From positions 1 to 40,266 of the forward strand of contig CANREP010000016.1 in assembly GCA_947629685.1 (NCBI GenBank): a DNA stretch of 40,266 bases. The letters run 5' to 3'. The notes under the pieces were generated by a model. It was given only the letters and a program-made list of their open reading frames with translations. It was not told the DNA's origin and searched no databases. Below, piece by piece: positions 15,535-19,213 of the stretch. Within the stretch, counting starts at the first letter, position 1. Every line of letters begins with the position of its first letter. This stretch comes from an uncultured Phascolarctobacterium sp. Its GTDB lineage: Bacteria; Bacillota; Negativicutes; Acidaminococcales; Acidaminococcaceae. Made by a program: the position numbers and the translations under genes.

Positions 15535-16809
15535 TTATTTGCCGGGGAAGAAAGGCCATACCATCGGGATGATAATCAGGGATACGATAAATGCTACGAT
15601 TACCAGACCGGTACCAGCTTTTACGTAGTCCATGAATTTGTATCCGCCAGGGCCAAGAACCAGGGTGTTCGGAGGAGTACCAACAGGAGTTGCGAATGCG
15701 CAGGAAGCTGCAACCGCAATTGCCATCAATACTGCTTTCGGGTCAGCACCCAGTTGTTTGGAGATTGCAATGCCGATCGGGCACAGCAGAGCTGCAGATG
15801 CAGTGTTGGACATGAATTGTGTCAGGCCGCAGGACAGGATGAAGAGTACTGCAGTAACAACCATCGGGGAAGGAGAACCGCCCATCAGGCCAACGCAGAA
15901 TTCAGCAACCAGTTTACCAGCGCCAGTTTTGTCCATTGCGGAAGATACAGGCATCATACCAGCGAACAGGAAGATGGTTACCCAGTCGATGGAAGCATAT
16001 GCTTGTTTTTCAGTCAAGCAGCCGGTCAGTACGCAAACCAGAGCACCGATAATTGCTGCCATTTCCAGGGTTACGCCCGGGATGCCGATTGCCATGGTGA
16101 TAACAACCAACAGCAGGATAACGCCGGAGATGATCATTTTGTTAGTGGAAGTAGAAGAAGCTTCGATTTCTTGTTCGATTTCCTGGTCAGCATCCAGTTC
16201 AACTTTCGGCAGGAGGTGTTTGCCGATGAACATCATGTAGAGCATACCTGCTACGGATACAGGAATACCGATCCAAGCGAATTCGAAGAAGCCGAATGCC
16301 GGCAGACCAGCTGCAGTCATAGCGCCGGTTGCGATGATGTTAGGCGGAGTACCAACCATGGTGATGATACCGCCCCAACCGCAAGCAAATGCCAAAGGCA
16401 TCAACTGACGGGAAGCCGGAATCTTAGCTGCTGCGCAGATACCGAGTGCTACAGGAAGCAAGCAAGCTGCGGTACCAGTGTTGGACAATACAGAAGAAAG
16501 TAAAGTACCAACGAGCATCAGGCCGAACATCAGGCTGTTTTCACCGGTACCACACATTTTAACAACAGTGTTACCGATTTTCTGAGCCAAGCCGGTGTAG
16601 AACATTGCTGCACCTACAACGAACATACCTGCGAACAGTACTACGGTAGAGTCGGACAAACCGGAGAATACTTGTTTAGCAGGAATGAAACCTAACAGGC
16701 CGCATGCGATAGCGCCTGCCATTGCAGTAATTGCCAGAGGGATAAGTTCAGTTACGAAGAAAAGTGCAACTACTGCCAACAGAATTAAACATTTTACTGC
16801 TGGGGACAT
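15535..16809 (-). CDS. DASS/SLC13-type dicarboxylate (anion):Na+ symporter
   Basis: This inner-membrane carrier of the divalent anion:sodium symporter family (VcINDY/SdcS-like) most probably imports C4-dicarboxylates. Both diagnostic SNT motifs are present (109-111 and 334-336), each followed by a GTPPN motif (153-157 and 377-381), marking the two inverted repeats that build the Na+ and carboxylate sites. About 11 hydrophobic helices and an acidic cytoplasmic linker (203-222) are visible. At 424 residues it is slightly short for the family. AAAGGAGG lies 8 nt before the ATG. It stands as a single transcription unit with its own promoter, a 5' hairpin and a strong terminator, and its promoter carries the TGTTGC-N4-GCAACA palindrome shared with the nearby CRP/FNR-type gene. 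Succinate as substrate is an inference. Confidence 0.93.
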   Translation of the reverse strand: MSPAVKCLILLAVVALFFVTELIPLAITAMAGAIACGLLGFIPAKQVFSGLSDSTVVLFAGMFVVGAAMFYTGLAQKIGNTVVKMCGTGENSLMFGLMLVGTLLSSVLSNTGTAACLLPVALGICAAAKIPASRQLMPLAFACGWGGIITMVGTPPNIIATGAMTAAGLPAFGFFEFAWIGIPVSVAGMLYMMFIGKHLLPKVELDADQEIEQEIEASSTSTNKMIISGVILLLVVITMAIGIPGVTLEMAAIIGALVCVLTGCLTEKQAYASIDWVTIFLFAGMMPVSSAMDKTGAGKLVAEFCVGLMGGSPSPMVVTAVLFILSCGLTQFMSNTASAALLCPIGIAISKQLGADPKAVLMAIAVAASCAFATPVGTPPNTLVLGPGGYKFMDYVKAGTGLVIVAFIVSLIIIPMVWPFFPGK

Positions 16810-16838
16810 TTTCTGTTCCTCCTTTATAAAGTTTTTTA

Positions 16839-16889: not shown

Positions 16890-16905
16890 TGTTGCTAAAG
16901 CAACA
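16890..16905. promoter_or_regulatory. Operator A: palindrome TGTTGC-N4-GCAACA upstream of the DASS transporter
   Basis: This perfect palindrome with 6-bp arms is centred at 16897.5, about 41.5-44.5 bp upstream of the predicted start, depending on which -10 box is used. The minus-strand sequence TGTTGCTTTAGCAACA is identical to operator C. Size and symmetry match CRP/FNR-family sites. Confidence 0.75.
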
Positions 16906-17079: not shown

Positions 17080-17520
17080 TCAGTTTTTCGTTCTGTCTTT
17101 TAAACATTCCCGAGGTGAAGTGCTGAAATAGTGCCGGAATGCCTTGTAAAAATTACTGCTGTTGCAATATCCAGGCATATCGGCCTTTCTACTGGCAGAT
17201 AAGTTTATTCCAGCAGCAATTTCACACGTCGCATCCTGGATGCCAGCAGGATTTCAGAAAAAGTCCGCCCTGTCTTTTTCGGCAGAAGTTTGGAAAGATA
17301 CACCGGATGATATCCAAAGTGTGCGGCAGCAGATGCTGATGTCATGGTATCCGAGTTAGTCTCTATATATTGTACAATCTGGTCTTCCAAAAACTCCTTT
17401 ACCGCCAGACGCGAAGGAAAAAAATTCATGTAAAGCACAAGCACAGTATGAGTGTTCATTGCCTGCATCCTGCAGGACTGATACCTGTATTCCTTGTGCA
17501 TAGAAAAAAGCCGCACTTCC
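17080..17520 (-). pseudogene. Remnant of an AraC-family transcriptional regulator
   Basis: The minus strand encodes recognisable AraC C-terminal sequence in pieces. One frame gives VKEFLEDQIVQYIE, then FGYHPVYLSKLLPKKTG (first helix-turn-helix) and RMRRVKLLLE, followed by an in-frame TAA (17205-17207). Translation continues TYLPVER in the same frame after that stop, and then the expected second helix-turn-helix (GYCNSSNFYKAFRHYF and SPRECLK) appears in another frame, ending at TGA 17080. So there is at least one nonsense codon and one frameshift. The N-terminal ligand-binding part is missing or unrecognisable. It sits between the DASS transporter and the CRP/FNR-type gene and may be a dead former regulator of the locus. 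Confidence 0.8.
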
Positions 17521-17572
17521 AAAATTGAAAGTGACAGCTTTTTCTTGCCCCAAAATAAAATTTTCCGTAAGT

Positions 17573-17607
17573 AAAATCGGACACCGGCGCTTATGCGTCC
17601 GGTGTCC
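17573..17607 (-). terminator. Intrinsic terminator after the CRP/FNR-type gene
   Basis: A 12-bp GC-rich stem with one bulged base (17579-17590 with 17595-17607) around a 4-nt loop begins 9 nt after the regulator stop codon. The following T-run on the minus strand is short (GATTTTAC). Confidence 0.75.
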
Positions 17608-17615
17608 GGCATAAT

Positions 17616-18308
17616 CTATTGTTTCGCTGTTTCTTTGTCTGTTTTATCCAGCAGTTCAAAGACATTCTTTTCAAAATTTATCAGGCCTTCTTCACGCATC
17701 CGGGAAAGCTCGCGGGTCAGCGCGCTCCTGTCGGCGTCAAGATAATTGGCCATATCGGTGCGGTTAAAGGGGACGACTACTTTCCTGCTGCCCTGGCTGG
17801 CTGCTTCCTGCTCCAGATAGGCCAGAATCTTGCCTTTCAGGGTTTTCTTGCAGAGAATCTCGGTTTTCTCAATCAGCTTGGTGTTATTGTCTGCCAGGAT
17901 AGCCACGATATTGCAGGCCAGTTTGCCCTGCAGCAGCTTATTGTCGCCGCCGGTCATCATCTTGCCGAAAGGCAGCATCAATATCTCGCTGTCGCTGGCC
18001 GCAAAATAACTGACGATACTGCGGTCGCCGCGGCGTCCGAGGAAGTTTTCCGCAAAAACGGAGCCCGCGCCTAAATTAGCGATGATGGATTTTTCGCCCC
18101 AGATATCCTCTTTAATCATCTGTACCGTGCCGTTGATGACCACGCACAGATTCTCCACGCAGTCGCCAGCCAGAAAGATATAGTCGGACTTCTGAAAATG
18201 CTTGACAAGCGCATTAGCCTTGGTCAGGACTTCTTTGATCTCGTCGCTGCCCAATCCGTCAAACAGCGGTATTTCATTGATCTTCTGCAAAGAAAGCTTC
18301 ACGTCCAT
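17616..18308 (-). CDS. CRP/FNR-family transcriptional regulator
   Basis: The protein (230 residues) has the CRP/FNR architecture: an N-terminal cyclic-nucleotide-binding-like beta-roll (about 15-120), a dimerisation helix (about 125-170) and a winged helix-turn-helix (about 178-215) with recognition helix DRSALTRELSRMREEG. Cysteines are at 50, 55, 132 and 153; there is no N-terminal Cys cluster of FNR type, so the effector (cAMP, haem, NO or redox) cannot be named. GGGTGAG precedes the ATG. Three palindromes TGTTGC-N4-GCAACA lie in this neighbourhood, one in its own upstream region, making autoregulation and control of the adjacent transporter and small RNA likely. Binding is inferred from position and family, not shown. 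Confidence 0.9.
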   Translation of the reverse strand: MDVKLSLQKINEIPLFDGLGSDEIKEVLTKANALVKHFQKSDYIFLAGDCVENLCVVINGTVQMIKEDIWGEKSIIANLGAGSVFAENFLGRRGDRSIVSYFAASDSEILMLPFGKMMTGGDNKLLQGKLACNIVAILADNNTKLIEKTEILCKKTLKGKILAYLEQEAASQGSRKVVVPFNRTDMANYLDADRSALTRELSRMREEGLINFEKNVFELLDKTDKETAKQ

Positions 18309-18379: not shown

Positions 18380-18412
18380 TATTTTGTAATTAAAGTAAGT
18401 ATTATGTAAATA

Positions 18413-18428
18413 TGTTGCGTAGGCAACA
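18413..18428. promoter_or_regulatory. Operator B: palindrome TGTTGC-N4-GCAACA upstream of the CRP/FNR-type gene
   Basis: The arms match operators A and C exactly and only the 4-bp centre differs (GTAG). The position is compatible with autoregulation. Confidence 0.75.
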
Positions 18429-18537
18429 TTTATCATATTTAAAATAAATTATATATTATTTAATATATTGTAGGTAAAGTTTAGTAATTTATGTAACGGA
18501 ATATTTTAATTAAAATAAGTGCGCTGCAGAGTATTTT

Positions 18538-18553
18538 TGTTGCTTTAGCAACA
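18538..18553. promoter_or_regulatory. Operator C: palindrome TGTTGC-N4-GCAACA upstream of the predicted small RNA
   Basis: The plus-strand sequence TGTTGCTTTAGCAACA is centred at 18545.5, about 40.5 bp upstream of the start predicted from TATAAT at 18574-18579. This is the class II activator position. Confidence 0.78.
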
Positions 18554-18573
18554 GCTAACTATAAACAAAGATT

Positions 18574-18579
18574 TATAAT
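18574..18579 (+). promoter_or_regulatory. -10 box of the predicted small RNA promoter
   Basis: A consensus TATAAT gives a start near 18586. The -35 area has no consensus match and is overlapped by operator C, as expected for an activated promoter. Confidence 0.65.
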
Positions 18580-18585
18580 TTAATT

Positions 18586-18683
18586 AACAGCAAACGAGAC
18601 ATTTGCTCGGGACATTAGTTCTTCTAATGTCACAAATTTTTGGCCGAATATATGGAGTTCAGCATATATTCGGTTCTTTTTTT
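18586..18683 (+). ncRNA. Predicted ~98-nt small RNA under CRP/FNR-type control
   Basis: This non-coding stretch between the divergent regulator and ogt has the anatomy of a trans-acting small RNA: promoter with an upstream palindrome, three hairpins and a terminator. Hairpin 1 is AGCAAA/TTTGCT (18589-18607). Hairpin 2 is an 8-bp stem GACATTAG/CTAATGTC (18611-18631) with loop TTCTT. Hairpin 3 is the terminator with a T-run. A short single-stranded linker CACAAATTTTTGG lies between hairpins 2 and 3. No convincing reading frame is present. The layout resembles E. coli FnrS, an FNR-activated small RNA, but no sequence similarity is claimed. The alternative is a terminated leader of ogt, whose start is 50 nt downstream. 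Confidence 0.6.
18644..18683 (+). terminator. Intrinsic terminator of the predicted small RNA
   Basis: An 11-bp perfect stem (CCGAATATATG at 18644-18654 with CATATATTCGG at 18663-18673) with an 8-nt loop is followed by TTCTTTTTTT. It lies in intergenic DNA in the plus orientation, where no upstream gene would need it. Confidence 0.85.
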
Positions 18684-18733
18684 GTGTTAAAATAATCTTA
18701 TCCTTACATAAATTTAGCTTCAGGGTGAAAAAT

Positions 18734-19213
18734 ATGCTTTACTTTACATTTATCAGACCAACGGCGGAAATAGCGCTGACGCTTACTGCCGACGAAGACA
18801 GCCTGCTGCATATAGATTTTGGCGCGCAGCATCCAGACGGCGCTGTCTTAAGGCAAAACCCGGTGCTGACGCTGGCAGCTTTGCAGCTGCAGGAATATTT
18901 TGCGGGTCAGCGCCAGCAGTTCGCTCTGCCGTTAAAGCCTGCCGGCACAGAGTTTCAGAAACTGGTATGGCGCGCGCTGACGCGCATCCCCTACGGCTCA
19001 ACCTCTACCTATAAGGAGCTGGCGGAAGCTATCGGCAATCCAAAAGCCAGCCGCGCCGTCGGCAGCGCCTGTCACCGCAATCCGCTGCCCGTCGTCATCC
19101 CCTGCCACCGCGTCATCGGCAGCAGCGGCAGCCTTACCGGCTATGCCGGCGGACTGGAACTGAAAGCAGCGCTGCTAAAGCTGGAACAGGAGCATCCTCA
19201 AAAAGAAATATAA
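18734..19213 (+). CDS. ogt: Methylated-DNA--[protein]-cysteine S-methyltransferase
   Basis: This suicide repair protein transfers methyl groups from O6-methylguanine (and O4-methylthymine) to its own cysteine. The active-site motif is IPCHRV with C124 as acceptor, and FQKLVWRALTRIPYGSTSTY is the DNA-binding segment that contains the helix-turn-helix. Length (159) is normal for an Ogt-type single protein without an Ada domain. The frame opens at GTG 18725, but AGGGTG then serves as ribosome binding site for ATG 18734. It is one of the few plus-strand genes and ends in a terminator shared with dnaJ. Confidence 0.94.
   Translation: MLYFTFIRPTAEIALTLTADEDSLLHIDFGAQHPDGAVLRQNPVLTLAALQLQEYFAGQRQQFALPLKPAGTEFQKLVWRALTRIPYGSTSTYKELAEAIGNPKASRAVGSACHRNPLPVVIPCHRVIGSSGSLTGYAGGLELKAALLKLEQEHPQKEI

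Follow-up and report, generated by a model that had tools for sequence, protein, structure and literature searches.

The window, a stretch of 40,266 nucleotides from an uncultured Phascolarctobacterium sp., carries a predicted small RNA gene (18586..18684, plus strand) beside the gene for a CRP/FNR-family regulator. We propose, with a probability of about 0.78, that this RNA is a regulator-activated, trans-acting base-pairing sRNA that blocks translation of SLC13/DASS anion symporter mRNAs, probably favouring one paralogue over the others. The CRP/FNR-family protein would bind GTTGC-N4-GCAAC about 41 nt upstream of the start and activate the sRNA promoter in class II fashion, giving an RNA of about 98 nt that would end at its own terminator. 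The loop and 3′ arm of hairpin 1 (GAGACAUUU), together with a single-stranded linker and an arm of hairpin 2 (GCUNGGGNCAU), would pair with SLC13/DASS mRNAs from the start codon to codon 8, which should keep ribosomes from binding and reduce synthesis of the transporter. For this regulator, direct activation of the DASS gene linked to it, and probably of its own gene, is predicted as well.

Phascolarctobacterium lives on succinate that other bacteria of the gut produce, a compound to which the host and pathogens alike respond as a signal. The sRNA probably helps decide which transporter copies Phascolarctobacterium makes, and the predicted circuit of regulator, sRNA and target offers a directly testable account of how uptake could be tuned in a succinate specialist.

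Structure and conservation of the small RNA gene

In the window sequence the RNA gene is compact, consisting of a promoter, three hairpins and a terminator within about 98 nt. Its −10 box, TATAAT (18574..18579, plus strand), follows the upstream operator C after a gap of 21 nt. The 98 nt fold at −30.1 kcal/mol, compared with −14.1 ± 2.7 for shuffled sequences (z = −6.0), and none of 200 shuffles folded as well. For hairpin 1 (18589..18607, plus strand), the window sequence alone allows two alternatives, CGAG/CUCG, which is the minimum free energy form, or AGCAAA/UUUGCU. The homologues favour the latter, as AGCAAA-CGAGACA-UUUGCU, in which a single C-G pair is replaced by U-G; its loop and 3′ arm form the first seed. 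Hairpin 2 (GACATTAG/CTAATGTC; 18611..18631, plus strand) has 5 of 7 pairs changed on both sides among homologues. Hairpin 3 with its U-run (18642..18683, plus strand), in which 8 of 11 pairs are changed on both sides, is an intrinsic terminator made of a stem-loop at 18642-18675 followed by CTTTTTTT. The corresponding P. faecium RNA is predicted to be about 105 nt long and to begin just before AAAGCAAACG.

Homologues were found by blastn across 61 relatives, which placed them in other genera of the family, and by a covariance model search of 380 genomes of the class, 9 of which have the sRNA. These nine genomes represent 5 genera, all in the one family that contains Phascolarctobacterium, and when 84,980 species were scanned for exact copies of hairpin 1 plus the linker, Phascolarctobacterium alone was returned, including P. 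faecium DSM 14760. Hairpin 1, 19 nt long, does not vary among 8 of the 9 homologues; the ninth (G017) keeps it with the C-G to U-G change, in a block shifted by a 2-nt insertion. In hairpins 2 and 3, 13 pairs are changed on both sides against 3.5 expected, a value reached by none of 500 shuffles, and the signal is lost when the pairing partners are slid. The alignment was fitted to the structure and so favours it, yet with an effect of this size, and given the slide control, we judge the structure safe. Conserved secondary structure, as expected of a trans-acting base-pairing sRNA, is thus present. In two genomes, coding genes contain matches to the loop of the terminator, but these are same-sense and probably due to chance.

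An earlier note, made from the sequence of the window alone, had described a TATAAT box behind operator C, a non-coding stretch with three clean hairpins, no plus-strand gene upstream that would need the terminator, and ogt about 50 nt further on. The box, the divergent orientation of the upstream crp gene (17616-18308) and the distance to ogt (ATG at 18734, or GTG at 18725) are as it stated; the hairpins stand as a conserved and unusually stable structure (z = −6.0), and only the cleanness of hairpin 1 has to be qualified by its two alternatives. Two of the checks it proposed were run. Comparison of the stems among relatives found the hairpins conserved, with compensatory changes in hairpins 2 and 3. 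The Rfam search gave no match at the gathering score, and at a permissive E-value (up to E = 5) nothing credible, FnrS included, was found across 18500-18740, in agreement with the note's statement that it knew of no described family. We conclude that this is a new family of a known kind of sRNA, none of whose members is catalogued in Rfam.

The position of ogt raises another explanation, namely a 5′ leader or an attenuator belonging to that gene, and ogt also lies downstream in a second genome of the same genus. In other genera, however, ogt is absent at this place: in g16, g3 and g17, and likewise in P. faecium and G017, other genes come after the RNA, in some cases on the opposite strand, and yet RNA, operator, promoter and terminator persist. 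Because the element persists without ogt, the RNA is not an ogt leader; as a general explanation this is already refuted, and we find it barely credible. The pattern instead agrees with the note's choice of a separate RNA, which, judged from its sequence and surroundings, would be an intergenic unit with its own promoter and terminator, independent of a neighbouring gene, as is typical of trans-acting base-pairing sRNAs.

The neighbour that is kept beside the RNA is the divergent CRP/FNR-family gene. A regulator orthologue of at least 62% identity adjoins 8 of the 9 sRNAs; for the ninth (G022), which lies near a contig end in a 73% complete genome, none was found. Conversely, 8 of 10 genomes with such an orthologue have the RNA beside it. 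In the other two, G027 (L063) and G072 (L064) of genus g17, the regulator and its operator are kept and no RNA is found at that place.

Operators, the regulator and comparison with FnrS

The regulator gene, crp (17616..18308, minus strand), encodes a protein with Pfam domains cNMP_binding and HTH_Crp_2 and is the predicted activator. Operator C (GTTGCTTTAGCAAC; 18539..18552, plus strand), the predicted activator site of the sRNA promoter, is centred at about −41 from the predicted start. The operator GTTGC-N4-GCAAC is a perfect palindrome at all nine homologues, and at all nine promoters the −10 box starts 29-30 nt from the operator centre, which is the geometry of class II CRP/FNR promoters (centre near −41.5, −10 box starting ~29-30 nt past the centre). 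From the palindrome and this fixed spacing, activation of the RNA by the adjacent CRP/FNR-type protein is predicted, as the earlier note had supposed.

The same palindrome stands before crp and before the crp-linked DASS gene, mostly with 30-31 nt to the −10 box. Operator A (GTTGCTTTAGCAAC; 16891..16904, minus strand), 88 nt from the DASS start, shows class II spacing to a −10 box TATTAT (16868-16863) and is conserved ahead of the crp-linked DASS gene in other genera. Operator B (GTTGCGTAGGCAAC; 18414..18427, minus strand), upstream of the regulator gene, predicts autoregulation and occurs with the orthologues in g1, g16 and g17, including two genomes without the sRNA. Of the four perfect operator sites in the genome of the window, three lie at crp, at the sRNA and at the crp-linked DASS gene; the fourth falls within a gene for a MATE transporter, probably by chance.

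Between operator B and the regulator gene, a block GTAAATATTTTGTAATTAAAGTAAGTATTA (18380-18410) is near-identical in g1, g16 and g17, and may serve the regulator gene as core promoter or be another binding site. Between the regulator and the DASS gene stands an open frame of 135 aa (17205-17612, minus strand) that has no Pfam hit and reads like a remnant of an AraC-type HTH protein; the gap between these two genes is much shorter in the sister genome G001.

The earlier note had likened the RNA to FnrS, and here only part of its claim can be kept. FnrS of E. coli is under the control of an activator of the CRP/FNR superfamily and represses by base pairing with mRNAs (PMC10993149). The overall logic, in which a CRP/FNR-family activator drives an sRNA, is shared, and so is the base pairing with mRNAs, predicted in our case. 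Kinship with FnrS and the FNR or anaerobiosis logic, however, fall away. The two RNAs have no relation in sequence or in Rfam, and here the sRNA gene is physically linked to the gene of its regulator. The regulator shows no conserved set in the FNR cysteine pattern, most of its cysteines are not conserved, the P. faecium orthologue is without the GDC..NLC pair, and the NCBIfam Fnr score is 21.5 against a cut-off of 228. All nine homologues carry GTTGC-N4-GCAAC and not the FNR box TTGAT-N4-ATCAA. Finally, the predicted targets are DASS transporters rather than mRNAs of aerobic metabolism, and the hosts are anaerobes. Thus, an FNR-activated anaerobic sRNA of the FnrS type is very improbable indeed.

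Other known sRNAs resemble the proposed one in single aspects. Spot 42 and CyaR are CRP-controlled carbon sRNAs and likewise form a post-transcriptional arm of a CRP-family carbon regulator, but they are unrelated in sequence, whereas the RNA of the window is predicted to answer to a dedicated local regulator and to act on one transporter family. FsrA of B. subtilis, an iron-sparing RNA under Fur control that represses dctP, is a Firmicutes sRNA directed against a C4-dicarboxylate transporter; it differs in that control and function, in the transporter family and in sequence. In Salmonella, OxyS alters succinate utilisation through CspC, with a kissing pairing near the ribosome-binding site (PMC10965054). 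It thus also touches succinate utilisation, but acts indirectly via CspC and is activated by OxyR.

Complementarity to DASS translation starts

The crp-linked, presumably co-regulated gene (15535..16809, minus strand) encodes a succinate-type SLC13/DASS anion symporter, with a TIGR00785 score of 212.4 bits against a cut-off of 198.6 and homology to VcINDY; its substrate is probably succinate or a similar dicarboxylate, and it is a predicted sRNA target. A conserved 24-nt antisense core, CGAGACATTTGCTCGGGACATTAG (18595..18618, plus strand), with seeds GAGACAUUU and GCUCGGGACAU, is complementary to DASS translation starts, the conserved CGAGACAUUUGCUNGGGNCAUUAG being antisense to the initiation region of the mRNA. 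On DASS mRNAs the site is bipartite, reading AUGUCCCNAGC, 4 nt looped out, then AAAUGUYU(C), and extends from the start codon to codon 8. In the window it is AAAUGUCCCCAGC-AGUA-AAAUGUUU (16787..16811, minus strand), with a pairing energy of −22.3 kcal/mol that none of 300 shuffles reached, and in P. faecium 12 contiguous bases from the AUG match perfectly.

Gene starts were called by a simple script and sampled at ~20% of each genome, with the crp-linked regions included deliberately. Among the 415 starts thus sampled in the genome of the window (G000), DASS genes took ranks 1, 2 and 3 (−29.3, −28.2 and −22.3), while the other starts had a mean of −10.5 (sd 2.8) and a best value of −21.8. The crp-linked DASS gene of P. 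faecium ranked first of 356 (−25.1; next −17.8), and when the sample was later extended by two more DASS copies, these too outranked every other gene. The target hypothesis came from these two genomes, and G026, from a third genus, served as a further test, in which a DASS gene ranked first of 324 (−29.7; next −22.8). Specific complementarity to the mRNA initiation region, with DASS starts in first place, is therefore seen in three genera. When the full RNA was used and intramolecular folding allowed to compete, a DASS gene was still first in all three genomes, although the crp-linked one of G000 dropped to 23 of 415. In each of the eight genomes for which both genes were available, at least one DASS start pairs at −23 to −30 kcal/mol, with none of 300 shuffled cores as good. 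A genome-wide search for the bipartite site found its exact matches at DASS starts in every genome having one.

These results come from predictions with bulges allowed. A first prediction, limited to ungapped duplexes under strict accessibility, had ranked the crp-linked DASS gene of G000 260th of 415 because such duplexes cannot span the 4 nt that loop out, and already placed its paralogues 5th and 11th. Duplex prediction with the full-length sRNA was uninformative, as it ignores intramolecular structure. No clear case of compensatory change tracks the pairing between sRNA and target, and a U-to-C change in the linker in g1 breaks one pair. Plain non-targets also occur among the DASS genes, namely two copies in G026 and distant ones in G001 and G017, for which the predicted pairing is poor. 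All three genomes tested encode Hfq.

Some further matches were observed. The CU-rich hairpin 2 region of the P. faecium RNA is also predicted to pair with the Shine-Dalgarno region of the regulator's own mRNA (L141:9790; ddG −23.9, 2nd of 363), whereas the highest-ranking hits in the other two genomes do not include this pairing. In G027 and G072, one DASS paralogue each begins with MSK (AUGUCUAAAGC) instead of MSQ or MSP and is without the CCC match. Genus g16 yielded ~10-25 additional matches to the bipartite site, which we set aside, as the copies examined belong to a dispersed parS-bearing repeat and not to mRNA starts. The repeat, ATGTCCC[CT][CT]TCNNNNAAATGTTT, is dispersed in ~10-25 copies in G026, G068 and G032 (L213-L222), and in the copies examined it runs into CACGTGAAACA, so that it includes the parS palindrome TGTTTCACGTGAAACA together with a conserved stretch upstream of it.

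Transporter paralogues and alternative modes of action

Between 2 and 8 DASS paralogues were matched per genome. P. faecium (G003) has at least five copies plus fragments, one copy being split in two near the end of contig C1, and the family seems to be expanding there by duplication. According to the passages searched in one paper (PMC7568257), P. faecium consumes and grows on succinate, and two SLC13/DASS genes reach a far higher TPM when it is co-cultured with a producer of succinate; those passages mention neither a regulator nor an sRNA.

In 7 of 8 genomes the strongest DASS target has no operator near its start, and the operator-bearing genes pair less well. Since the best match to the RNA is usually found in operator-less paralogues, the circuit as a whole would probably bring about a switch from the other DASS paralogues to the regulator's own transporter. 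We put this switch forward as a hypothesis, since the eight genomes are not independent, two G026 copies pair poorly despite having no operator, and G017 shows no paralogue bias. The locus might then be a self-contained transporter-switching cassette, in which the regulator turns on its own succinate-type transporter and the linked sRNA silences siblings elsewhere in the genome, an idea to which we give somewhat less than even odds. Silencing through paralogue-graded complementarity to the start codon region belongs to the same reading and is held just as tentatively.

The RNA could also pair with DASS mRNAs and activate or stabilise them, so that regulator and sRNA would push succinate uptake the same way. 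This would make a simple coherent circuit, given the direct activation of a DASS gene that is predicted for the regulator as well. The site, however, reaches from the start codon to codon 8, a region in which pairing as a rule prevents initiation, and the best-paired paralogues usually lack an operator, so activation appears unlikely. Still less do we expect that the hairpins sequester a protein or a riboswitch RNA and that the DASS complementarity is secondary. What speaks for this is a motif, GCAAAC-NN-GACATTTGC, common with 1-2 differences to hairpin 1 and to the regulatory hairpin of an AdoCbl riboswitch in the same genomes. Yet by our own estimate chance alone would give about 0.27 such matches per genome, an A for G change breaks the kissing pair, and the conservation of hairpin 1 is already explained by DASS pairing. 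The riboswitch hairpin itself does not favour DASS starts, the best of which ranks 129 of 415.

Repression of DASS translation remains our preferred reading; the second RNA with nearly the same hairpin, set aside here, turned out to be the downstream hairpin of that riboswitch. The AdoCbl riboswitch is a conserved intergenic element with its own promoter (G000:C29:5822-5838, L054; also L030, L031, L039, L050, L051, L055 and L056), followed by a CU-rich stretch and a terminator, with no same-strand gene directly behind. The locus is a candidate for a riboswitch-controlled non-coding RNA in four genera, for which EutX/Rli55 provides the comparison.
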